Positions 27,152 to 58,310 of a stretch of DNA of 64,000 nt are shown here, one piece after another (within the stretch, counting starts at the first letter, position 1; every line of letters begins with the position of its first letter). The translations under genes were made by a program, and so were the position numbers. Under the pieces are notes generated by a model. It searched no databases and was not told the origin of the DNA. It saw nothing but the letters and a program-made list of their open reading frames with translations. The DNA lies in assembly GCF_000706765.1 (NCBI RefSeq), contig NZ_CP006018.1:558001-622000 (forward strand). The letters are read 5' to 3'. The stretch is from Bifidobacterium [indicum] DSM 20214 = LMG 11587 (GTDB taxonomy: Bacteria; Actinomycetota; Actinomycetes; Actinomycetales; Bifidobacteriaceae).

Positions 27152-28030
27152 ATGAGCGCGTTGAGCGAGTCAATCTCCCGAAGAATGACCCTGGGACAGC
27201 TCAAGGGGAGGTATGGGCTGACCCTGATTCCTTCGTTTGCGGAACCCGTCACGGTCACATCCCTGGCCAATGACCTGGTATCAGTGCGTCCCGGCAGCCT
27301 CTATGTGCCGGATGGGGAGGCAGACCAGGGCATGGTGGACGAGGCCGAGCGCAGAGGCGCCTATGCCGCCCTCCTGCCCTCCACGGATCGGCACAAGATA
27401 CGAAATGCTCAGATTCCCCTCCTGTTTGGCAATATGCTTCCTTCCCAAATGGGACAGCTCCTTTCCACTGTGGCGGGTGATCCTTCCAGTTCCCTGGCCG
27501 TCTTCGGCCTGGTCGGGTCTGATGTGTACGGCGGGGTGGATACCCTGGCCGAATTCCTGCATGTCCTGGGCAATCCGGTGGGGGTCATCAGCGCCCACGG
27601 TTCCTATTCCCTCGATCGCGAGCTGAATTTGGACTACCCGCTGAGCATGTTCGACATCCAGCGTTGTCTGTCCATATACCTTGAGGATGGCGCCGCCGCG
27701 GTTGTCATATCGGTGGGGGAGGAGACCCTGCAGAAGGATGCCCTCCGGTCTGTCGACATGGACGTGGTGGCCCTGGGTGAGCAAGAGGCTTCCGCCAGCG
27801 ATCTGCGACGTGCAAGGATGCTCTCCCATGCCCGACGATTCGGATTCGGCCTGGGCGGGCGGACCACTGTGGCACGGCGAACCGACGATTCGGATTCCCT
27901 GGCCAGGCAGTCGGTGCTCCCGGGATCGCCCTTCGAGGATTTGTCCCTGTGCATAGCGATGACCATGGCCGCCGGGGTCAAGCGCAACAACATCAGGAGC
28001 GCCCTGCGTGTCTCCCGCGAAATGTCCTGA
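27152..28030 (+). CDS. Degenerate MurE-like protein without ATP-binding loop
   Basis: Located at the standard murE position between ftsI and murF. The 292-aa product matches the MurE N-terminal substrate domain (TVTSLANDLVSVRPGSLYVPDG, compare SDSRxVxPGxLFVA) and then the start of the central domain. At the place of the GTxGKTTT loop it reads VFGLVGSDVYGGVDT (117-131), so the ATP-binding lysine is lost. It ends about 200 residues short of a full MurE, without the C-terminal domain. It has a good AAAGGAGAG site and no internal stop, so it is probably expressed. It may be a pseudoenzyme with a structural or regulatory role, or a relic; a functional murE lies at 55665-57269. Confidence 0.8.
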   Translation: MSALSESISRRMTLGQLKGRYGLTLIPSFAEPVTVTSLANDLVSVRPGSLYVPDGEADQGMVDEAERRGAYAALLPSTDRHKIRNAQIPLLFGNMLPSQMGQLLSTVAGDPSSSLAVFGLVGSDVYGGVDTLAEFLHVLGNPVGVISAHGSYSLDRELNLDYPLSMFDIQRCLSIYLEDGAAAVVISVGEETLQKDALRSVDMDVVALGEQEASASDLRRARMLSHARRFGFGLGGRTTVARRTDDSDSLARQSVLPGSPFEDLSLCIAMTMAAGVKRNNIRSALRVSREMS

Positions 28031-48379: not shown

Positions 48380-49801
48380 ATGTCATTCGAAGAACCCAAC
48401 AGCGATGGTCAGGATATCCGCGAGGTGGAGCGTGCCATCATGTCGCGCCCTGCCGAGCACAACACCACCAATCTGGACCTGGATCGGATGAGTCTGATAC
48501 TGGACCTCCTGGGGCATCCGGAGCAGAGCTTCCGTGTCATCCACATCACCGGAACCAACGGGAAGGGGTCAACGGCCCGGATGGCTGAGGCCATCGCCCG
48601 CACCTACGGCATGAGGACGGGCCTCTATACCTCCCCCCACCTGGAGCGGATCAACGAGCGGATCGCCATCGATGGGCAGGAGCTGTCGGATGAGCGCTTC
48701 GTGGATGTATACCGGCAGATTGAAGACTTCATCACGATGGTCGACGACCGGTTCGCCAAGGAGGGGCGGCCGCCGATGAGCTTCTTCGAGGTCCTGACGG
48801 CCATGGCCATCTGGGCCTTTGCGGACGCCCCCGTGGATGTGGCGGTTGTTGAGGTCGGTATGGGCGGACTCTGGGACGCCACCAACGTCCTGAGTGCGGA
48901 TGTTGCCGTCATCGGTCCGGTTGACTTGGATCACATGCAGTGGCTGGGCGACACGGTCGAACAGATAGCCACCGAGAAGGCGGGAATCATCAAGGAGGGT
49001 TCCACCGTCATCGTAGGGCCGCAGCCCCATGAGGAGGCTGTCATGCCAATCATCGAGGCGGCCGCCCGTGAGCGTGGTGCAGCCCGGGTCCTCCATGACG
49101 GGCAGGAGCTGGAGGTGGTGTCCCGGATGCCCGCCGTGGGTGGTCAGGTGGCCACCCTGCGCACTCCCAACGGGGAGTACACCGAGGTTCCCATCGACAA
49201 GTTCGGAGCCCACCAGGCCCACAACGCCCTTGCTGCCCTGGCTGCAGCCGAAATCGTCATCCCGGTCAGCGGAACCCTCAATCAGGATCTGGTGGACGAG
49301 GCCCTGAGCGAGGTCCGCGTTCCGGGGCGCATCGAGCAGATACGCAACTCGCCCACCATCATCATCGACGGCGGGCACAACCTGAACGCCGCCCAGTCCC
49401 TGAGGGAAGCCATCGAGGAGAACTACCACTTCGAACAGCTGGTCGGGGTGGTGGCCATGATGGCCGACAAACAGGTCGAGGACTATCTGGGTGTTCTGGA
49501 GCCGATCATGGACCAGATCATCGTCACCGAGAACTCCTGGCGTGACAGGGTCATGCCCGCCGAGGACCTGGAGAAGATCGCCAAGCAGGTCTTTGGTCCC
49601 GACCGGGTCATCAGGAGGGACTCCCTTCCCGACGCCATCCAGGAGGCCGTCAATATGGTCGACGCCGAGGATGAGACCGGTCTGGGATACGGCAGGGGTG
49701 TGCTGATCTGCGGCAGTTTCGTCACCGCAGGCGACGCCCGTACCCTTCTCAAGGAGCATCACAACCCCGATCTGGACAAGCCCAAATCGGAGCGTGCCTG
49801 A
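48380..49801 (+). CDS. folC: Folylpolyglutamate/dihydrofolate synthase
   Basis: Mur-ligase-fold enzyme that makes dihydrofolate and adds glutamate residues to folates. The 473-aa protein has HITGTNGKGSTARM (ATP loop), YTSPHLERINERI, VEVGMGGLWDATN, DHMQWLGDTVEQIATEKAGI and the C-terminal DGGHNLNAAQSL. The upstream 297 bases contain TAGAAT (48331) and TACCGT (48349) as possible -10 boxes. Its stop overlaps the smc start by one base. Confidence 0.93.
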   Translation: MSFEEPNSDGQDIREVERAIMSRPAEHNTTNLDLDRMSLILDLLGHPEQSFRVIHITGTNGKGSTARMAEAIARTYGMRTGLYTSPHLERINERIAIDGQELSDERFVDVYRQIEDFITMVDDRFAKEGRPPMSFFEVLTAMAIWAFADAPVDVAVVEVGMGGLWDATNVLSADVAVIGPVDLDHMQWLGDTVEQIATEKAGIIKEGSTVIVGPQPHEEAVMPIIEAAARERGAARVLHDGQELEVVSRMPAVGGQVATLRTPNGEYTEVPIDKFGAHQAHNALAALAAAEIVIPVSGTLNQDLVDEALSEVRVPGRIEQIRNSPTIIIDGGHNLNAAQSLREAIEENYHFEQLVGVVAMMADKQVEDYLGVLEPIMDQIIVTENSWRDRVMPAEDLEKIAKQVFGPDRVIRRDSLPDAIQEAVNMVDAEDETGLGYGRGVLICGSFVTAGDARTLLKEHHNPDLDKPKSERA

Positions 49802-52800
49802 TGTACCTGAAGGAGCTGACGCTCAAGGGCTTCAAGTCCTTCGCCTCGGCCACCACCCTCCGGTTCGAGCCCGGCATCACGGCCGTGGTGGGCCCGAACG
49901 GGTCGGGGAAGTCCAACATCGTGGATGCCCTGGCCTGGGTGATGGGGGAGCAGGGGGCCAAGAGTCTGCGTGGCTCCTCCATGGAGGACGTGATCTTTGC
50001 AGGCACCTCCTCCAGGCCGCCGCTTGGACGGGCACAGGTGACCCTGACGATCGACAACTCCGATCATGCCCTGGACATCGACTATACCGAGGTGACCATC
50101 TCGCGAACCATCTACCGCAACGGTGGTTCCGAGTACGCCATCAACGGATCCGCCTGCCGTCTCCTGGACATCCAGGACCTTCTGAGCGATACGGGCCTGG
50201 GCCAGCAGATGCACGTCATTGTCGGGCAGGGGCGCCTGGACGAGATTCTCAGGGCCGATCCGAGCGGGCACCGTGCCTTTATCGAGGAGGCCGCCGGGAT
50301 ACTCAAGCACCGCAAGCGCAAGGAGCGGGCCCTGCGCAAGCTGTCCAACACGGAAACCAACCTGTCGCGCCTTGATGACCTGATAGGGGAGATTCACCGC
50401 CAGCTGGGGCCGCTGGGCCGCCAGGCGAAGGTTTCCCGTCGGGCCGACAAGATACAGGTCTCCCTACGGGACGCCCAGGCTAGGATCGATGCCGAGGATG
50501 CCCTGAAATCAAAGGAGGGGCTGGTCTCGGTCCGCCAGGAGATGGGGAGTGTCCGCCAGGACCTGACCTCGCGTCAGCGTGATCTTGCCCGGGTCAAGCT
50601 GAAAATCGAACAGGCTGAGTCGGTCTCCAGCAGATCGAACCCTGAAATGGAGCGAATCAATCAGGTATGGCATGACCTGACCCAGCTTCAGGAACGGTTC
50701 CGGTCGATGGCCTCCTTGGCCGACGAGCGGGCGCGCTCCCTCCAGGGACGCATCATCGATCATCCGGGAGACGACCCGGAGATACTGCGCAAACGAGCCA
50801 AGGAGCTTGAAGATCAGGCTGAGGCCCAGGAAACGCAGGTGTCCAATGCCCGTATCGCCCTGGACAAGGCGGTGCAGTCCAGGGCCGACCAGGAGAAGCA
50901 GCTGGCGGCCCTCCGCCAAACCCTGACCGAGCTGCGACAGAACGCTCGGCGGCGTGATGCCAGGCTGGGCGACCTGCGACAGATGGTGGCCAAGGAGGAA
51001 TCGGCCCTGGATCTGGCCCAGCGACGTACGGACGACTTCGATCAGCAGGAGGTGGGGCTGGTCAAGGAGCAGGACCAGGCCAGACAGCGTCTGGACCTTC
51101 TGGAGGAGGAGTCCAGGGAGCCTGCCCAGGAAGATCCCCAGGGCATCGAATCGGCCCAGGAAGCCAAATCGAAGGCCCGGCAGGAACTGGACGCCCTGGA
51201 AGAGCAGCAGCGCCTGCTCGATGCCCGGATCATCTCCCTCAAGGCCAAGGCCGATGCCCTGACCGACACCATCGAGAGCAGGAGCGCCTCGGACAAACTG
51301 ACCGGTCAGGACGACTTGGTTTCCTTGGGTTCCGTCACTGATTTCATTCAGGTCGAGGAGGGTTGGGAGGAACCTCTGGCCCATGCCTTGCGTGATTATG
51401 CCGGAGCAATCGTCGTGGACGGTCCCGATACCCTGCTCAAGGCCCTGGACCGTGCCCGTGATGACAGACTGGGCAGGGCGGCCTTGCTTGTGCCGAGTGA
51501 CGCAGTGCAGGACGATGCCATTCAGAAGGGTGCGGGGGAAGGCGAAGGCCACAGGTCCGCAGCATCGCTGGTCGGACCACGCAAAGCAGCCTCGGAGGGT
51601 GGAAGCGGCCAGGCCGACAGGGTTCTGGCGGCCATCCGCCTCCTGCTTGCCGGAACGGCAGCTGTAGAGGACGGTCGAGCCGCCCTGGAGGCTCTGAAAA
51701 CCGGAGATTGGGATCAGGCCGTGACCCGGGATGGAGACCTTTTCGACCGGGTGGGGGCTGTAGGCGGTTCATCCCCGGCCACCAGCGACCTGGCCTTGGT
51801 GGCCCGCAGGGACAAGGCCTTGGCGGAATCCGAAGGGCTGGTCCGGGAGTCGGAAGCCCTCACACCCAAGGTGGAGGAGGCCCGGAAGACCCTGGACCTG
51901 GCTATCAGGCAGGTGGAGGAGGCCCGGAACCGACAGACCGAGGCAAGGCTCAAAGCCGAACAGTCCGCCCGTGCCCTGGAAGGGGCCAGGACCCAGGCGG
52001 CGCAGGTCAAAGCGCGGCTCCAGGACCTGAGGGAGCGCAGGGATCAGGCTCAGGAGCAGATCCATATGCACACCCTGAAGCTGGAAGACCTCAAGTCAAG
52101 CCTGGCCAAGGCGGAGGCCAACGGGGACGACCAGGTCGATCTGGATGACATGGACCGCCGGTCGGGGGAGTTGGAAGGTGCCCTGGACCAGGCCCGGTCC
52201 CGGGAGATGGAGGCCCGGTTGACCTGGAAGGAGGCCGACCGGAAGGCCGGTTCCCTGACCCGGCAGGCGGAACTGCTCATGGATCAGGCCAATCAGGCGC
52301 AGCAACGCAGGGAACATCAGCAGAAGGAAAACGAGCTGCGGCGCCAGGAGGTCGGAACACTCAGGGGCATCAGCTCCCAATCCATGCTTCTGTCCGGCCT
52401 GGTCACCAAGAGCATGGAGGCGGCCACACAGGAACGGGAACGCCTCCAGGAGCGGGTCTCCGCTCAGGATCAGGAGCTGATCGGTCTGCGCAAGGAACGG
52501 GATGGGTTGGAGCCCGAGGTGGCCGCCCTCCAGGAACGTGAGCACACCCTGGACCTGAACCGTGAACGCCTGGCCACTGAGGATGGTCAGCTCAGGCAAC
52601 GGATTCATGACGACCTGGGTATGGAGGTCGATGAGCTCATCCGCGAATACGGACCGGACAGATCGGTACCGGTCCTTGATGACGAGGGCAACCCCGTGCC
52701 CCTGGATGCGGACGGGGCCGACTCCGATTCATCTCCGGAGTCGGTGACCGATACCCGACTTTGCAAGACCGTACCCTATGTTCGTGCAGAGCAGGTCAAA

Positions 52801-53445
52801 CGACTCGAAAAGGCCAAACGGGACCTGGCCGCCCTGGGCAAGGTCAATCCCCTGGCCACCGAGGAATATGATGCCCTACAGACCCGTAACCGATACCTGA
52901 ACGAGCAGCGCAATGATGTGGTCAAATCCAGGGACGACCTGATGGGGCTGGTCAGGGACCTGGATAAGACCATGGTCCAAGTCTTCAAGGAGGCCTTTGA
53001 CGACACGGCCGAAGCCTTCGAGCGGATGTTCGGCACCCTCTTCCCCGGTGGCACCGGCAGGCTGCGTTTGGAGAACCCGGATGACCTCCTGACCACGGGG
53101 GTGCTGGTCGAGGCCAGTCCCGCCGGGAAGAAGGTCAGACAGCTGTCCCTCCTCTCGGGTGGGGAGCGCTCGCTGACGGCCCTGGCTCTCCTCTTTGCCA
53201 TCTTCACGGCGCGCCCCAGCCCCTTCTATGTCATGGATGAGGTCGAGGCGGCCTTGGATGACGTGAACCTGACCAGGCTGATCAAGGCTTTCAATCAGCT
53301 GCGTGAGCATGCCCAGCTGATTGTCATCACCCATCAGCAGCGGACCATGAGCATCGCCGATTCGCTCTATGGCATCACCATGCGTGGGGATGGTGTCACG
53401 TCCGTCATCTCCCAAAAGCTCGACAGGGAGCAGGACGAAGGGTAG
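49801..53445 (+). CDS. smc: Chromosome segregation protein SMC
   Basis: Large ATPase that loops and organises the chromosome with ScpA and ScpB. The 1214-aa protein has Walker A VVGPNGSGKSNIVDAL near residue 35, long coiled coils (about 165-495 and 680-1020), a hinge (about 500-670, SVTDFIQVEEGWEEPLAHALRD) and the C-terminal head with LLSGGERSLTALALLFAIF and Walker B FYVMDEVEAALDD. It is in an operon with folC. scpA/scpB are not in the window. Confidence 0.97.
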   Translation: MYLKELTLKGFKSFASATTLRFEPGITAVVGPNGSGKSNIVDALAWVMGEQGAKSLRGSSMEDVIFAGTSSRPPLGRAQVTLTIDNSDHALDIDYTEVTISRTIYRNGGSEYAINGSACRLLDIQDLLSDTGLGQQMHVIVGQGRLDEILRADPSGHRAFIEEAAGILKHRKRKERALRKLSNTETNLSRLDDLIGEIHRQLGPLGRQAKVSRRADKIQVSLRDAQARIDAEDALKSKEGLVSVRQEMGSVRQDLTSRQRDLARVKLKIEQAESVSSRSNPEMERINQVWHDLTQLQERFRSMASLADERARSLQGRIIDHPGDDPEILRKRAKELEDQAEAQETQVSNARIALDKAVQSRADQEKQLAALRQTLTELRQNARRRDARLGDLRQMVAKEESALDLAQRRTDDFDQQEVGLVKEQDQARQRLDLLEEESREPAQEDPQGIESAQEAKSKARQELDALEEQQRLLDARIISLKAKADALTDTIESRSASDKLTGQDDLVSLGSVTDFIQVEEGWEEPLAHALRDYAGAIVVDGPDTLLKALDRARDDRLGRAALLVPSDAVQDDAIQKGAGEGEGHRSAASLVGPRKAASEGGSGQADRVLAAIRLLLAGTAAVEDGRAALEALKTGDWDQAVTRDGDLFDRVGAVGGSSPATSDLALVARRDKALAESEGLVRESEALTPKVEEARKTLDLAIRQVEEARNRQTEARLKAEQSARALEGARTQAAQVKARLQDLRERRDQAQEQIHMHTLKLEDLKSSLAKAEANGDDQVDLDDMDRRSGELEGALDQARSREMEARLTWKEADRKAGSLTRQAELLMDQANQAQQRREHQQKENELRRQEVGTLRGISSQSMLLSGLVTKSMEAATQERERLQERVSAQDQELIGLRKERDGLEPEVAALQEREHTLDLNRERLATEDGQLRQRIHDDLGMEVDELIREYGPDRSVPVLDDEGNPVPLDADGADSDSSPESVTDTRLCKTVPYVRAEQVKRLEKAKRDLAALGKVNPLATEEYDALQTRNRYLNEQRNDVVKSRDDLMGLVRDLDKTMVQVFKEAFDDTAEAFERMFGTLFPGGTGRLRLENPDDLLTTGVLVEASPAGKKVRQLSLLSGGERSLTALALLFAIFTARPSPFYVMDEVEAALDDVNLTRLIKAFNQLREHAQLIVITHQQRTMSIADSLYGITMRGDGVTSVISQKLDREQDEG

Positions 53446-53625: not shown

Positions 53626-54348
53626 TCAGTGGGATGATTCCGCCCGGAGTTCCTTGGCCCGTCGCACGGTGGATAGGGCCAGGATGGCCTGAGAGTCCAC
53701 GATGGGCAGGTCGGGCATGGGGTAAACCTCGTTCAGGGCCGACAGCTCGGTACAGCCCAGCAATACCGTGTCGCAGCGGTAATGTTCCAGGAACTCCTGG
53801 ACCACGGCCAGATACCGGTCCCGGTCGAACCTGCCCTCCTTTACATCCTGGTAGATCAGGGCGTTGACCTTGTCCTGGAGGGCCTGGTCCGGGTCTACCA
53901 GGTCGTAGCCCGCCTTGCTGGCAGGGCTGTGGTAGATGGCCGCATGTCGGGACCCTTCCGTCCCCATGTACCCCATCCGGGGGTGGGTGGAGGAGGGGAA
54001 GTGCTCCACGGCCCAGTCGATGGTCTCCTGGGGCATGTTCAGGATGGGCACCGTGGTGCGGTCCTGGAGGCGGGGCAGGACCAGGTGGGCCGTATTGCAG
54101 GCCATGACCATGAAGGAGGCACCCATCCGGGTGGCCTGGTCCACATCCTCGGCCAGGTAGGGGTAGGGGTCATTCGTGCTCCGCCCCAGAATGAAGTCCG
54201 TCCTATCCGGGACCGTGGCATGGTTGAAGACCACATAGTCCAGGAACTCCTGATCGCGGGTGGCGTGTGTCTCCTTGTCGAGAACGCGCACGAAGCTCTC
54301 GGTGGCCATGGTTCCCATGCCGCCCAGAACGGCGAAGAAGTTCCTCAT
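53626..54348 (-). CDS. Aspartate/glutamate racemase family protein, probable aspartate racemase
   Basis: PLP-independent racemase of 240 aa. Both catalytic cysteines are present in MVMACNTAHL and VLLGCTELSAL; the N-terminus MRNFFAVLGGMGTMATESF is typical of aspartate racemases (compare GGMGP). ATG 54348 overlaps the stop of the ATP-grasp ligase gene (ATGA) and has GGGAGG upstream. With that ligase it should supply D-aspartate for the peptidoglycan cross-bridge. Glutamate racemase (MurI) is the main alternative, but context favours aspartate. Confidence 0.82.
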   Translation of the reverse strand: MRNFFAVLGGMGTMATESFVRVLDKETHATRDQEFLDYVVFNHATVPDRTDFILGRSTNDPYPYLAEDVDQATRMGASFMVMACNTAHLVLPRLQDRTTVPILNMPQETIDWAVEHFPSSTHPRMGYMGTEGSRHAAIYHSPASKAGYDLVDPDQALQDKVNALIYQDVKEGRFDRDRYLAVVQEFLEHYRCDTVLLGCTELSALNEVYPMPDLPIVDSQAILALSTVRRAKELRAESSH

Positions 54349-55589
54349 GCCAGGCCTCCCTTGTCCCTGAAGTACTGGGCATAGCGTTTGCGGTAGATGG
54401 AGAACATATGCCGCACCATCAGCCAGCGCAGCGGATTCCTGTCCTGCCTGTACTCCAGGGTGGTTCCCCAGTCGCCGCGCTTGATCATGGACAGGGCACT
54501 GTCCTTGTCCTTGGACGGCTGGGTGTAGGTCTGGAAAATGTCCTGCGGGATTTCCATCCATAGCCTGTGTCCCCGGCCGAAGACGGTGCGGCCGTCGAAT
54601 GCCGAGTCCTCGACCAGGTCCTCAACGAAGTACCGGGCAAGGTTGAATCCGTTCAGGGTCACCACGTAGCTGCTTCGTCCCTGGCGGAGGTTGATTTCGA
54701 AGAGCTTGTATGTATCATCGCGCGGGTCGTACTTCATATCGAAGTTGGCCACCCCGCAGTAGCCGATATCCTCCAGGAACGTCTTGATCCGGTCGAAGAT
54801 GCCCTGGTTGTAATCGGGGATGATGGCCGCATAGTTCCCCACGGCCTCAGGGGTCGGGTCCTCCAGCAACGGGTGCCCCAGGAACATCATCCGCACCCGA
54901 TGGTGCTGGTCCACGTAGGCGTTGAGCACCCGCATGTTCTCATCGCCGCCGGGAATGAAGTCCTGGATGACCATCCTGCCGGTGTACCCCGCCTGGTAGG
55001 CACGGTGTATCAGGGTATCCAGCTCCTCCGGGTCCTGGATGATGAAGGCCTTCTTGCGTCCGGGGAAATCGATACCCAGCCACTCGTCGCTGTCGGCGGG
55101 CTTCATGGCCACCGGGTAGTCGAAGGGGAGGTTCCGATGCTCACCGGCCTCCACGCCGGCCTTGTCCACGCTCTTGGTCAGCGGATGGGGAAGGTCATAT
55201 TCCTCGCAAAGGTCGTAGAAGGAGGATTTCAGGCTCAGCCTGCGGTTCAGATCCGCATCGATGGCGTTGAACGCGAAATACCGGCGGAGGGGTGCGCCAA
55301 CCTGATCCAGAAGGTTGGCGTAGGTATCCCCGCAGGGTAGGAGGATGAGGGTGGTTCCGGGGTGCTTCTGCAGGTATTCCCTGGCCCAGTCCGTCAAAGC
55401 CTGGACGAAGACCTGGGGCTTGGTGAAGTCCTTTACGAGATGGACGTCGATGATTCGGCTGTACTTGGTCGGCGACAGCTGGAAGTGGGCGAAGGCGGTC
55501 GAAACCAGTCCGTAGGCCTCATGGAAGGCCCTGGCCATGCCGTAGGCGTTGATATCGCTACCTAAAATGACCGGCTGAAATCGTTTCAT
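54345..55589 (-). CDS. ATP-grasp ligase, probable D-aspartate ligase for the cross-bridge
   Basis: 414-aa ATP-grasp carboxylate-amine ligase. Visible parts are the N-terminal VILGSDINAYGMARAFHEAYG, the ATP-binding lysine region YPVAMKPADSDEWLG, the clamp MVIQDFIPGGDENMRVL and metal-site ending LFEINLRQGRSSYVV. The size and neighbours (murE upstream, aspartate racemase overlapping downstream) match the D-aspartate ligase Asl of Enterococcus faecium, which attaches D-Asp to the lysine of UDP-MurNAc-pentapeptide. Substrate is inferred from context. It starts 75 bases after murE. Confidence 0.75.
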   Translation of the reverse strand: MKRFQPVILGSDINAYGMARAFHEAYGLVSTAFAHFQLSPTKYSRIIDVHLVKDFTKPQVFVQALTDWAREYLQKHPGTTLILLPCGDTYANLLDQVGAPLRRYFAFNAIDADLNRRLSLKSSFYDLCEEYDLPHPLTKSVDKAGVEAGEHRNLPFDYPVAMKPADSDEWLGIDFPGRKKAFIIQDPEELDTLIHRAYQAGYTGRMVIQDFIPGGDENMRVLNAYVDQHHRVRMMFLGHPLLEDPTPEAVGNYAAIIPDYNQGIFDRIKTFLEDIGYCGVANFDMKYDPRDDTYKLFEINLRQGRSSYVVTLNGFNLARYFVEDLVEDSAFDGRTVFGRGHRLWMEIPQDIFQTYTQPSKDKDSALSMIKRGDWGTTLEYRQDRNPLRWLMVRHMFSIYRKRYAQYFRDKGGLA

Positions 55590-55664
55590 CTGTGTGGACC
55601 ACCTGCTGTGTTGACCTCGGTTGGAATACTCGTACGGATTTCTATCATATAGCCCGCCCTCCGC

Positions 55665-57269
55665 TCATCCCCGGGGTGTGCCTGTGGCACCCAGATCATG
55701 GCTGCGGGTTCCCAGGAGGCGTGCCACGATCCGGTCATCGCCCTCGTAGGGGATCTGCTGGTGACCAACCTTGATCCAGCGCTCCTCGCCCTTGCCGATG
55801 ACCAGGATGACCTGGAACCCGGTGCCGTCGCCCGCCCCCTCCTGGATGGCCGTGGTGATGGCCTGGGTCCTGTCGAGGATGATCGAGACGTCCAGATCGG
55901 GATTGGTCACATAGCCCAGCATTTGCCGGCAGATGCGGTCGGCTCCTTCCGTGCCTTCATCGTCGCCGGTGATGATGAGCCGATCCACCCTGTTCTGGGC
56001 GGCCTGGACGATTCCCTGGCGGCGGTCGATGGCCTTGTCGCCCGCTGAGCCGGAGACCAGGGTGACAGCCGGGTTGCGGTTGCCGAACTGCTCATCCACG
56101 AAGTCCAGGAGGGCCTTGACCGAAGCCTGGTTATGGGCGTAATCCACATAAGCCACCCGATTGCCGGAGGCAAAGTGTTCCATCCTTCCGGCGATTCTGA
56201 CTTCCTCCATGGCCTTCAGGGCCTCCTGGTCGGGTTTCAGGCCGAGAGCCTGAACCATGGCCAAGGCGGCACACGCATTCAGGGCATTGAAGTCCCCGTC
56301 CATGGACGGATTGATCGCAGTCATGGGACCCGAGGCCGGTCCAATCAAATAGGAGTCCGCCGGGCCATCCTCGTGACGTTCCCCGAGCCGGACCAGGAAA
56401 TCCGCATCCTGTCGCGGCCGGGATCCCGCCTCGGTTCTGTCCATGCCGAAGGTGGTCAACGGTGTGCCTGCGGCTGCCGCATCCTGCCTGATCAGGTCGG
56501 CATGGGCGCAGTCGGCCCCCAGGACCAGTTTCCTGGAGTTGTAGGTGAGCTGACGCTTGCAGAACAGGTAGTCTTCGAAGGTGGGATGCTCAATGGGGCT
56601 GATGTGGTCAGGGGAGACGTTGAGGAATGCGCCCAGGTCGAAGGTCAACCCATAGACCCTGTCCACCTTGTAGGCCTGGGAGGAGACCTCCATGACCATG
56701 TAGCGCATGCCGGCATCCACGGCCTGCCGCATCATCCGGAAGAGGTCCAGGGACTCCGGGGTCGTCAGTTCGGACTCCCGGTAGTGCTGCCCGTCCAGGC
56801 AGTTGTCGACGGATGAAAGGAGGGCCGCCCGTCCGCCCGAAAGCTGGTTGAGCATACTCTGGAGGAAGTAGGCGGTGGTCGTCTTCCCCTTGGTTCCGGT
56901 GATGCCGACCAGGGTGAGGTCATCCTGCGGGTATCCGTAGTGGGCCGCAGCCAGGAGGCTCATGGCCTTGCGCACGTCGGAAACGATGATGCCCGGGGCC
57001 TGGCACCGTTCGGACAGGTCAGTCTCGGCCACATAGGCAGCCATCCCGGCCTGGTCGCATCCGTCCAGGTATTCGGGCTTGAAATTCCCCTTGCAGAAGA
57101 GGAGACTGCCCTGTTCCACCTGGCGGGTGTCGTAGGTCAGCGTCTTGAACTCGGCAGGCTCGCCGTCCTGGTTCGGAGCATCCAGGGACCAGTCCCCGCC
57201 CTGAATCACCTCGCGGAGCAGGTGGTGCCTGCCCAGCAGATCCAGTGCGGAAGTCATCGTCAGAGCCAT
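55665..57269 (-). CDS. murE: UDP-MurNAc-tripeptide synthetase MurE, probably L-lysine (or ornithine) type
   Basis: Adds the third amino acid to the wall stem peptide. The 534-aa enzyme is intact: N-terminal TLTYDTRQVEQGSLLFCKGNF, ATP loop GITGTKGKTTTAYF (from residue 122), TPESLDL, the carbamylated-lysine segment DYLFCKRQL, and the C-terminal domain. Where DAP-type enzymes carry DNPR it has DDEGTEG (436-442), which argues against meso-DAP. The FCKGNFKPEYL segment resembles Firmicutes lysine-type MurE. ATG 57269 has GAAGGGAGAG upstream. TAGACT (57349-57354, minus) is a weak -10 candidate. Confidence 0.9.
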   Translation of the reverse strand: MALTMTSALDLLGRHHLLREVIQGGDWSLDAPNQDGEPAEFKTLTYDTRQVEQGSLLFCKGNFKPEYLDGCDQAGMAAYVAETDLSERCQAPGIIVSDVRKAMSLLAAAHYGYPQDDLTLVGITGTKGKTTTAYFLQSMLNQLSGGRAALLSSVDNCLDGQHYRESELTTPESLDLFRMMRQAVDAGMRYMVMEVSSQAYKVDRVYGLTFDLGAFLNVSPDHISPIEHPTFEDYLFCKRQLTYNSRKLVLGADCAHADLIRQDAAAAGTPLTTFGMDRTEAGSRPRQDADFLVRLGERHEDGPADSYLIGPASGPMTAINPSMDGDFNALNACAALAMVQALGLKPDQEALKAMEEVRIAGRMEHFASGNRVAYVDYAHNQASVKALLDFVDEQFGNRNPAVTLVSGSAGDKAIDRRQGIVQAAQNRVDRLIITGDDEGTEGADRICRQMLGYVTNPDLDVSIILDRTQAITTAIQEGAGDGTGFQVILVIGKGEERWIKVGHQQIPYEGDDRIVARLLGTRSHDLGATGTPRG

Positions 57270-57435: not shown

Positions 57436-58191
57436 TCAGAACCAGGTATCGATTGCCGGGCGGCTTCCCTTTGAGGCGAGCCATTCGTTGAACTGCTCCA
57501 GCCAGGTTCTGTGCGCATCACGCTGCCAGTCCATGAGCTTGCCCAGGGTGATGCTGCCTACCTGCGGATAAAGGGTCGTCATAGGCTCGATCAGATCCAC
57601 CGAGGCCACCGTGTCGGTGGTTGCGTCGTGGAAATCCCCATGAGGAACGACCCCGTAGTATTCGGTCGTATAGGTCAGGGTCCGCCGCCCGGAGCGGTGC
57701 GAAATGGCCCTGTCGATGACCAGCGGATCGACCACCAGGAGCTCCCTCTCGGGCATTGGTTCCATCCTGCCTGAGCACCATTGGCGAATGTCGCCGTTGA
57801 GCATACGTACATCGAAGGGGGCATTGTAGGCCAGGAGCGGTATGTGCTTGCTCTGGGCCGTCATGATCAACCCGGCGATCTGCTCTATCGACTCGGCGGG
57901 TTCACTTCCGTTCGCGGCCAGGTACTCGTCGGTGAAGCCATTGACCCGGCTGGCTCCCTCGCTGATATGCCGGCCTGGGTTGATGATCCACTCGGCCACG
58001 GCATCACCCTCATACCCTGTTCGGGGGTTACGCAGTACCAGGCTGGCCGATACGATGTTGTCCCGATTGGGGCTGGTGCCCGTGGTCTCCGTGTCGAAAC
58101 CCAGGAGCCAGGACTGGTCAAGCCTGGTCGTCATATCCTGTTCAGGCGCGGAGTCAAGCGCTTCGTGCAAGGCTGTAAGAACGGTGCTCAT
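57436..58191 (-). CDS. DEDD-family 3'-5' exonuclease (DnaQ-like)
   Basis: 251-aa exonuclease domain with the three Exo motifs: LLGFDTETTGTSP (Asp-Glu), YNAPFDVRMLN and HDATTDTVASVDL. The closest families are the DNA polymerase III epsilon-like and RNase T-like exonucleases; without a BRCT or UvrC domain its specific role is open. ATG 58191 has GAAGGGAAGG upstream. A short CCCC/GGGG hairpin with TTTT (57407-57425, minus) may end the transcript before murE. Confidence 0.85.
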   Translation of the reverse strand: MSTVLTALHEALDSAPEQDMTTRLDQSWLLGFDTETTGTSPNRDNIVSASLVLRNPRTGYEGDAVAEWIINPGRHISEGASRVNGFTDEYLAANGSEPAESIEQIAGLIMTAQSKHIPLLAYNAPFDVRMLNGDIRQWCSGRMEPMPERELLVVDPLVIDRAISHRSGRRTLTYTTEYYGVVPHGDFHDATTDTVASVDLIEPMTTLYPQVGSITLGKLMDWQRDAHRTWLEQFNEWLASKGSRPAIDTWF

Positions 58192-58310
58192 GGTTGCAAA
58201 CCTTCCCTTCAGGGAACATGGTAGCCGAGGGTCTTCTCGGTTGGGTAGTTTCTGCAAGGGGTACCCATGTCGTAACCCCGTACCGGTCGGCCGAATGGCA
58301 GAATGGAGGC

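Follow-up and report, generated by a model that had tools for sequence, protein, structure and literature searches.

This work deals with the genes for the peptidoglycan cross-bridge of Bifidobacterium indicum DSM 20214 = LMG 11587. They were studied in a 64-kb window (the whole stretch of DNA that was analysed; contig NZ_CP006018.1, positions 558,001 to 622,000) of a single-contig genome of 1,734,546 bases. Three adjacent genes in this window encode a MurE, an ATP-grasp ligase and an aspartate racemase. D-aspartate made by the racemase would be joined by the ligase as a one-residue cross-bridge. The genes of the pair would occupy a cassette slot between the genes for MurE and SMC, and this MurE would have replaced an ancestral murE of the division and cell wall (dcw) cluster. 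A probability of about 0.87 is given to this explanation, which draws on gene content, synteny and kinship, on the fold predicted for the ligase, on selection and on the finding that the class-1 ligase and Fem genes exclude each other. The module consists of the following genes, with positions of the window:

55665 to 57269, minus strand: MurE, a UDP-MurNAc-tripeptide synthetase of the Lactobacillales type with DDEG replacing DNPR; start codon ATG at 57269, last base of the stop codon at 55665
54345 to 55589, minus strand: predicted D-aspartate ligase (Asl family, here class 1) with an ATP-grasp domain, from homology and predicted fold
53626 to 54348, minus strand: predicted aspartate racemase with two catalytic cysteines, from family model and motifs; its start overlaps the ligase stop (ATGA)

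A preliminary description of this DNA had read MurE, ligase and racemase as a set. The open reading frames (ORFs) do lie at the claimed positions, on one strand and tightly packed, with 75 nt between the MurE stop and the ligase. The racemase start was set in the ATGA overlap; the mechanical ORF start is at 54561. A scan for promoters and terminators gave 2 and 4 matches against 1.3 and 2.5 expected, too small a difference to be informative.

The ligase-racemase pair

The ligase is 50-56% identical, over approximately residues 2-412, to proteins of Enterococcus, Vagococcus, Tetragenococcus and Lacticaseibacillus. Its closest named relatives belong to Bifidobacterium of the asteroides group (78-90% identity). 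In the alignment with 22 relatives, nine of them from Lactobacillales, 109 columns are invariant. The protein reaches no Pfam or NCBIfam cut-off, and a sequence search of the PDB returned zero matches at E up to 1. Its AlphaFold model (predicted local distance difference test, pLDDT, 90.3; built from 23 sequences) found 502 matches in the PDB with an E value no higher than 0.001. By their descriptions, the best 50 of the 502 are all ATP-grasp enzymes or enzymes holding that domain. Early matches include the L-amino-acid ligase 3vot (2e-14) and PylC with L-lysine, 4ffl (4e-14). The predicted fold thus upholds the earlier ATP-grasp call. Full-length homology (one group with support 99 in a quick tree), this fold and the adjoining racemase gene argue for membership in the Asl family.

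Both cysteine motifs of the racemase are present (ACNTAH and GCTELS). The protein scores 210 bits against the aspartate racemase model TIGR00035 (cut-off 93) and 117 bits against PF01177 (Asp_Glu_race), which bears out the two-cysteine aspartate racemase proposed before. It remains below the cut-offs of the cysteate racemase CuyB (158 bits, cut-off 190) and of glutamate racemase (28 bits, cut-off 147). Its best solved relative is the aspartate racemase 1jfl (E 1e-30). These family models point to an enzyme of the aspartate rather than the glutamate or cysteate type.

The two genes were followed in 131 genomes of the Bifidobacteriaceae, of which 21 have less than 90% completeness or more than 5% contamination and 110 are termed good (genomes and loci are given by our handles, G and L). 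At a threshold of E up to 1e-10, the ligase was matched in 68 of the 131. The matches were grouped by identity into class 1 (at least 62%; n=42), class 2 (51-54%; n=4), class 3 (37-40%; n=5) and class 4 (weaker; n=17, among them G119 at 34%). A racemase adjoins the ligase in all 37 class-1 genomes with flanks retrieved (of 42). Within the tree set, a racemase lies near the ligase in 20/20 class-1 rows (19 genomes), 3/3 of class 2, 5/5 of class 3 and 0/10 of class 4. The two genes also adjoin in every Enterococcus locus retrieved, E. lactis included (E. faecium was not among the loci). At the loci L150 and L246, a class-4 ATP-grasp ligase gene follows MurE and a racemase is absent from the stretch.

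In the proposed pathway, the racemase would convert L-aspartate into D-aspartate, and the ligase would activate the latter as beta-aspartyl phosphate. The activated D-aspartate would then be attached to residue 3 (lysine or ornithine) through its side-chain amino group; this residue would be inserted into the stem peptide by the neighbouring MurE. Such a joining step is the most likely role of the ligase as judged by its relatives. D-aspartate, perhaps amidated later, would form a one-residue cross-bridge, i.e., a wall of type A4. In the well-described counterpart, aslA and racD share an operon, a beta-aspartyl phosphate intermediate is formed and D-aspartate is added to lysine (PMC4155827, in the part of the text available).

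It is improbable that the ligase uses another acid (of the D-glutamate, L-aspartate or D-serine type) and that the racemase serves another pathway. The family models do leave the ligase substrate unnamed, and the related ATP-grasp classes of the family, mostly without a nearby racemase, may use D-glutamate. D-glutamate is a possible class-4 substrate, needing no extra racemase. Against such a role, the ligase and racemase genes overlap, and the class 1-3 loci that were examined preserve their pairing. Moreover, the homologues in Lactobacillales are of the D-aspartate type according to the accessible portion of PMC4155827, and the exact loci compared here would belong to that family.

The pair resembles AslA/RacD of Lactococcus lactis and Aslfm of Enterococcus faecium in having an ATP-grasp ligase with an adjoining aspartate racemase, and in the full-length similarity to Enterococcus homologues. 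It differs in being actinobacterial, in standing directly downstream of MurE and in using a slot that other cassettes share in relatives. These comparisons were made with stand-ins, the closest being E. lactis L085 (52-53%), and not with the characterised E. faecium or L. lactis sequences. Five Vagococcus loci (L068, L069, L072, L081, L084) have the identical gene order of MurE, ligase and racemase, with a ligase 52-53% identical and a MurE only 37-40% identical.

MurE and the protein in the old murE locus

At the position where diaminopimelic acid (DAP) enzymes have DNPR, this MurE reads DDEG, as expected from the preliminary description. The motif FCKGNFKPEYL is present, as are the Mur ligase middle and C-terminal domains of Pfam. 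A careful tree was built from 42 sequences, namely 17 from Bifidobacteriaceae, 9 from Lactobacillales, 5 of a third group and 11 other actinobacterial rows. In this tree, the Bifidobacteriaceae rows (100/96) pair with the Lactobacillales rows (100/98), and the other actinobacterial rows stand apart (100/100). The third group of five, next nearest, is presumably Coriobacteriia. Constraining the bifidobacterial and actinobacterial MurEs together was rejected (approximately unbiased test, p 0.006). The Firmicutes-like look of MurE noticed earlier therefore reflects a sister relation to Lactobacillales MurEs without DNPR, which are of the lysine type. A wider quick tree of 70 MurEs is concordant, with seven low-identity family MurEs (g4, g5, G034) outside the main family clade. 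Altogether, 27 MurEs from the SMC locus of the family were placed in the tree.

The family and Lactobacillales clades are sisters, a kinship that leaves the direction of the MurE transfer unset. Base composition was also considered as a sign of recent transfer. This was rejected, as the module genes (60-64% G+C) match the window (62%) and leave no footprint. MurE was matched in 123 of the 131 family genomes and in all 110 good ones; hence, it was rejected as a gene specific to D-aspartate walls.

Further MurE forms were observed in the family. A third type (GTDGKT) occurs in some members, coded g4 and g5 (L218-L221, L225-L227), and adjoins Fem genes in g5. Tandem MurE copies are found in 9 of the 131 genomes, one copy being truncated (L154, L241, L243, L247 and L255 are among the loci). 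The second copies examined carry the motif DDPNFEDP, which some Enterococcus MurEs also have; such copies might be relevant to walls that mix lysine and ornithine.

The ancestral locus of murE holds another protein:

27152 to 28030, plus strand: MurE-derived protein without a P-loop, flanked by ftsI and murF where the ancestral murE would have stood, from weak MurE similarity and synteny

Its match to TIGR01085 is far below the cut-off (E 1.5e-4; 20.8 bits, cut-off 257), and it has no Pfam match. It is 15-21% identical to MurEs, and no single MurE group is singled out by its sequence. The GKT P-loop is absent from 32 of 32 copies in 32 genomes, the window's own included. All copies but one are flanked by ftsI and murF (31/32), the exception being without a detected ftsI in the stretch. 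Of four actinobacteria of the same order that were read, three have a complete murE between ftsI and murF; in L234, the remaining one, murF was not resolved from a long frame. In the g5 dcw clusters L225 and L227, ftsI adjoins murF, with neither murE nor the pseudoenzyme between them. A single-sequence structure model of the pseudoenzyme was unusable (pLDDT 32). Displacement of the ancestral dcw murE, another claim of the preliminary description, is well supported by this synteny. The Lactobacillales-like MurE would have taken over its function, and a non-catalytic MurE derivative would hold the old place.

The same description held that a pseudoenzyme had been left behind. The missing P-loop and the ancestral position agree with this, but the protein is not a mere leftover. 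It was matched in 122 of the 131 family genomes and in 110 of the 110 good ones; three weak matches (G004, G032, G044) are other MurEs. The ratios of nonsynonymous to synonymous substitution (dN/dS), from our own Nei-Gojobori script with one pair per gene, are 0.12 for the pseudoenzyme (relative at 87% identity), 0.15 for MurE, 0.08 for the ligase, 0.17 for the racemase and 0.16 for MurF. A decaying remnant without function would fit the short length and the lack of a P-loop and of a Pfam domain. It is nevertheless highly improbable given the presence in every good genome and a dN/dS as low as that of MurF. The protein is retained by selection and is not debris.

The interval between MurE and SMC

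The racemase is followed by the convergent gene for SMC, and MurE is preceded by an exonuclease-like gene:

49801 to 53445, plus strand: SMC, which bounds the proposed exchange slot on the far side and is transcribed toward the module; labelled by eye from the sequence
57436 to 58257, minus strand: exonuclease-like protein, which in many relatives bounds the MurE locus on the near side; labelled by eye

The class-1 ligase adjoins MurE in 40 of the 42 genomes having this class. In the two exceptions (G005, G041), the pair is elsewhere in the genome. As this order recurs in relatives, it is not due to chance. Among the 27 genomes from the genus of the window, class 1 occurs in 22 and class 2 in three, and two are without a ligase (G054, G062). 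In these two, MurE is 69-70% identical and stops 178-198 nt short of SMC, with a clean absence of the ligase-racemase pair and a FemAB gene located elsewhere. Outside the family, a ligase match with an E value of 1e-20 or lower was obtained in 27 of 345 genomes in a phylum sample, every one at 40% identity or less; the matches in Varibaculum and Propionimicrobium stem from a separate search.

The FemABX/BppA enzymes have a fold unrelated to that of the ATP-grasp ligase. They perform the same wall step, building cross-bridges of L-amino acids, and FemAB-like genes lie in the same slot in other Bifidobacteriaceae. They differ in being tRNA-dependent (PMC4155827, as far as its text was available), and they were never detected together with a class-1 ligase in the 131 genomes. 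FemAB (PF02388) was matched in 78 genomes, namely in 0 of the 42 with class 1 and in 78 of the 89 others (Fisher p 2e-24, ignoring kinship). With a second Fem query, 64 of the 131 were matched, again 0 of the 42. This query adds G095 and G114 and brings the non-class-1 genomes with Fem to 80 of 89. Nine genomes have neither (G014, G017, G018, G029, G034, G045, G067, G108, G119). For instance, G099 and G121 are among the class-1 carriers, G117, G057 and G127 have Fem without class 1, and G095 combines Fem, class 2 and a racemase.

The regions around MurE were read in 79 cases, the window included, and tallied by hand; SMC was not reached in many stretches, so that the far border was seen in part. 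MurE is linked to a Fem-like gene alone in 31 regions, to a class-1 ligase and a racemase in 17, to Fem and a class-4 ligase in 9, to Fem, a class-2 or class-3 ligase and a racemase in 8, and to a class-4 ligase alone in 3. The interval up to SMC is empty in 6, and the other 5 show neither a neighbour that could be recognised nor SMC within the stretch. The Fem gene stands upstream of MurE in four regions (G011, G022, G084, G088). Three Fem-like slot proteins were tested, and all match PF13480 and PF02388. The interval between MurE and SMC looks like an exchange slot for cross-bridge cassettes, and the ligase-racemase pair would be one of several alternatives beside a family-wide MurE. An SMC tree was made of 52 of the 79 regions, hand-picked and with long branches. 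On it, class 1 requires 10 changes against a shuffled mean of 11.7 (63 of 500 shuffles were as low), a near-random pattern that fits repeated exchange.

That the entire module was acquired in one piece, as supposed in the preliminary description, is too strong a reading of these data. MurE occurs family-wide beside every kind of cross-bridge gene, and the pair is absent in G054 and G062, elsewhere in G005 and G041, and accompanied by a native MurE in Varibaculum and Propionimicrobium. A related possibility is that a Lactobacillales-like donor gave a single three-gene module to the family ancestor, with many lineages subsequently losing or exchanging the pair. Lactobacillales are the nearest outside kin of both MurE and the class 1 and 2 ligases among the rows sampled. 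Furthermore, the family and Lactobacillales racemases group against five actinobacterial rows (99), the five Vagococcus loci share the gene order, and G028, a deep family branch, has the entire module. Several observations oppose this single gift. One of the two deepest MurE branches (L151, L158, L229, L230) is without a class-1 ligase, and no Enterococcus locus has MurE within 4 kb of the pair. The class-1 pairs away from MurE and the native MurEs of Varibaculum and Propionimicrobium also speak against it.

The trees of the pair add to this question. In a quick ligase tree, classes 1 and 2 form one group with Varibaculum and Propionimicrobium (100), nested among Lactobacillales with a support of only 93. 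The pair of these two genera (L026, L046, 4001-6045) falls beside Gardnerella (ligases 99, racemases 95), and their MurEs are actinobacterial, which suggests an apparent transfer of the pair between actinobacteria. In the racemase tree, 15 Lactobacillales rows are nested among the family rows (99 for the set of 19); hence, the direction of transfer is not fixed. Such nesting is unexpected from a single gift by Lactobacillales and makes the single module slightly less likely; we regard it as possible but doubtful. Racemases of classes 2 and 3 interleave with those of class 1, and the ligase thus appears exchangeable while the racemase stays. The explanation by a D-aspartate cassette in an exchange slot remains preferred.

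Wall chemistry and its reading from genes

Several points weigh against this D-aspartate reading. What the enzymes act on, the joining step and the resulting wall are inferred, and literature searches turned up no wall analysis for the host species. On the long-branched SMC tree, six independent supported-branch pairs differ in class 1; Fem differs the opposite way in a mean of 5.3 of the six and the same way in none (200 pairings). With a median sign-test p of 0.06, the kinship-aware exclusion of Fem is no more than suggestive. The rule that class 4 goes without a racemase is not clean: next to L256 (in G017), a weak and fragmented ligase match that was not part of the tree set, lies a gene distantly resembling a racemase (30%). 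The top NCBIfam model for MurE, NF001129, is named a DAP ligase. It would suit a MurE that adds meso-DAP and a ligase acting on DAP or elsewhere. Such an outcome is extremely improbable, as the score is below the cut-off (753 bits, cut-off 762), DNPR is missing and the protein is sister to the Lactobacillales MurEs without DNPR. The L-lysine ligase equivalog NF010628 was also missed (371 bits, cut-off 536). MurE was therefore not filed as a lysine equivalog, and lysine and ornithine are kept as alternatives.

Wall types A3alpha in B. animalis subsp. lactis and A3beta in B. longum are given in the available part of PMC8660834. The portion of PMC11382707 at hand lists A3alpha, A3beta and A4gamma for Bifidobacterium and lysine for Gardnerella. 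No description of an Asl ligase or of the slot between MurE and SMC in bifidobacteria was found in literature searches. The wall of B. indicum LMG 11587 is, we assume, L-Lys-D-Asp. Walls of B. adolescentis and B. angulatum contain D-aspartate and B. bifidum has a Ser-D-Asp bridge, whereas those of B. longum, B. breve and B. animalis are not known to contain D-aspartate. The wall of B. asteroides is L-Lys-Gly. Loci named B. asteroides (L012, L016, L017) carry a class-1 ligase, at odds with this wall; either the names or the attribution may err. G054 and G062, without class 1, might be nearer to the B. asteroides type strain.

A gene of the asparagine-synthase type (class II), the sole one in the genome, starts about 4 kb past the window end (L306:11094-12992). 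It is a candidate for the amidation of D-aspartate or for plain asparagine synthesis. AsnH amidates D-aspartate in L. lactis (PMC4155827, from the part available). Genes resembling MurT/GatD, labelled by eye, are present in the genome.

The module itself, as predicted, is known wall chemistry; more surprising are the likely exchange slot and a MurE pseudoenzyme maintained by selection. With some confidence, the interval between MurE and SMC may be viewed as a plug-in site that swaps the cross-bridge chemistry (D-aspartate ligase and racemase, Fem, mixed or nothing) beside a constant Lactobacillales-like MurE. The vacated murE locus would keep a selected pseudoenzyme without a P-loop, which might scaffold or regulate FtsI, MurF and MraY. 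These findings allow a gene-based reading of the wall type in a major family of the gut and the bee gut, whose wall chemistry classically serves taxonomy, and offer a reason for the cross-bridge differences among related species. Two testable questions follow: how cells survive when a swap at one locus changes their cross-bridge chemistry, and for what reason the cluster for division and wall synthesis retains a catalytically dead MurE.

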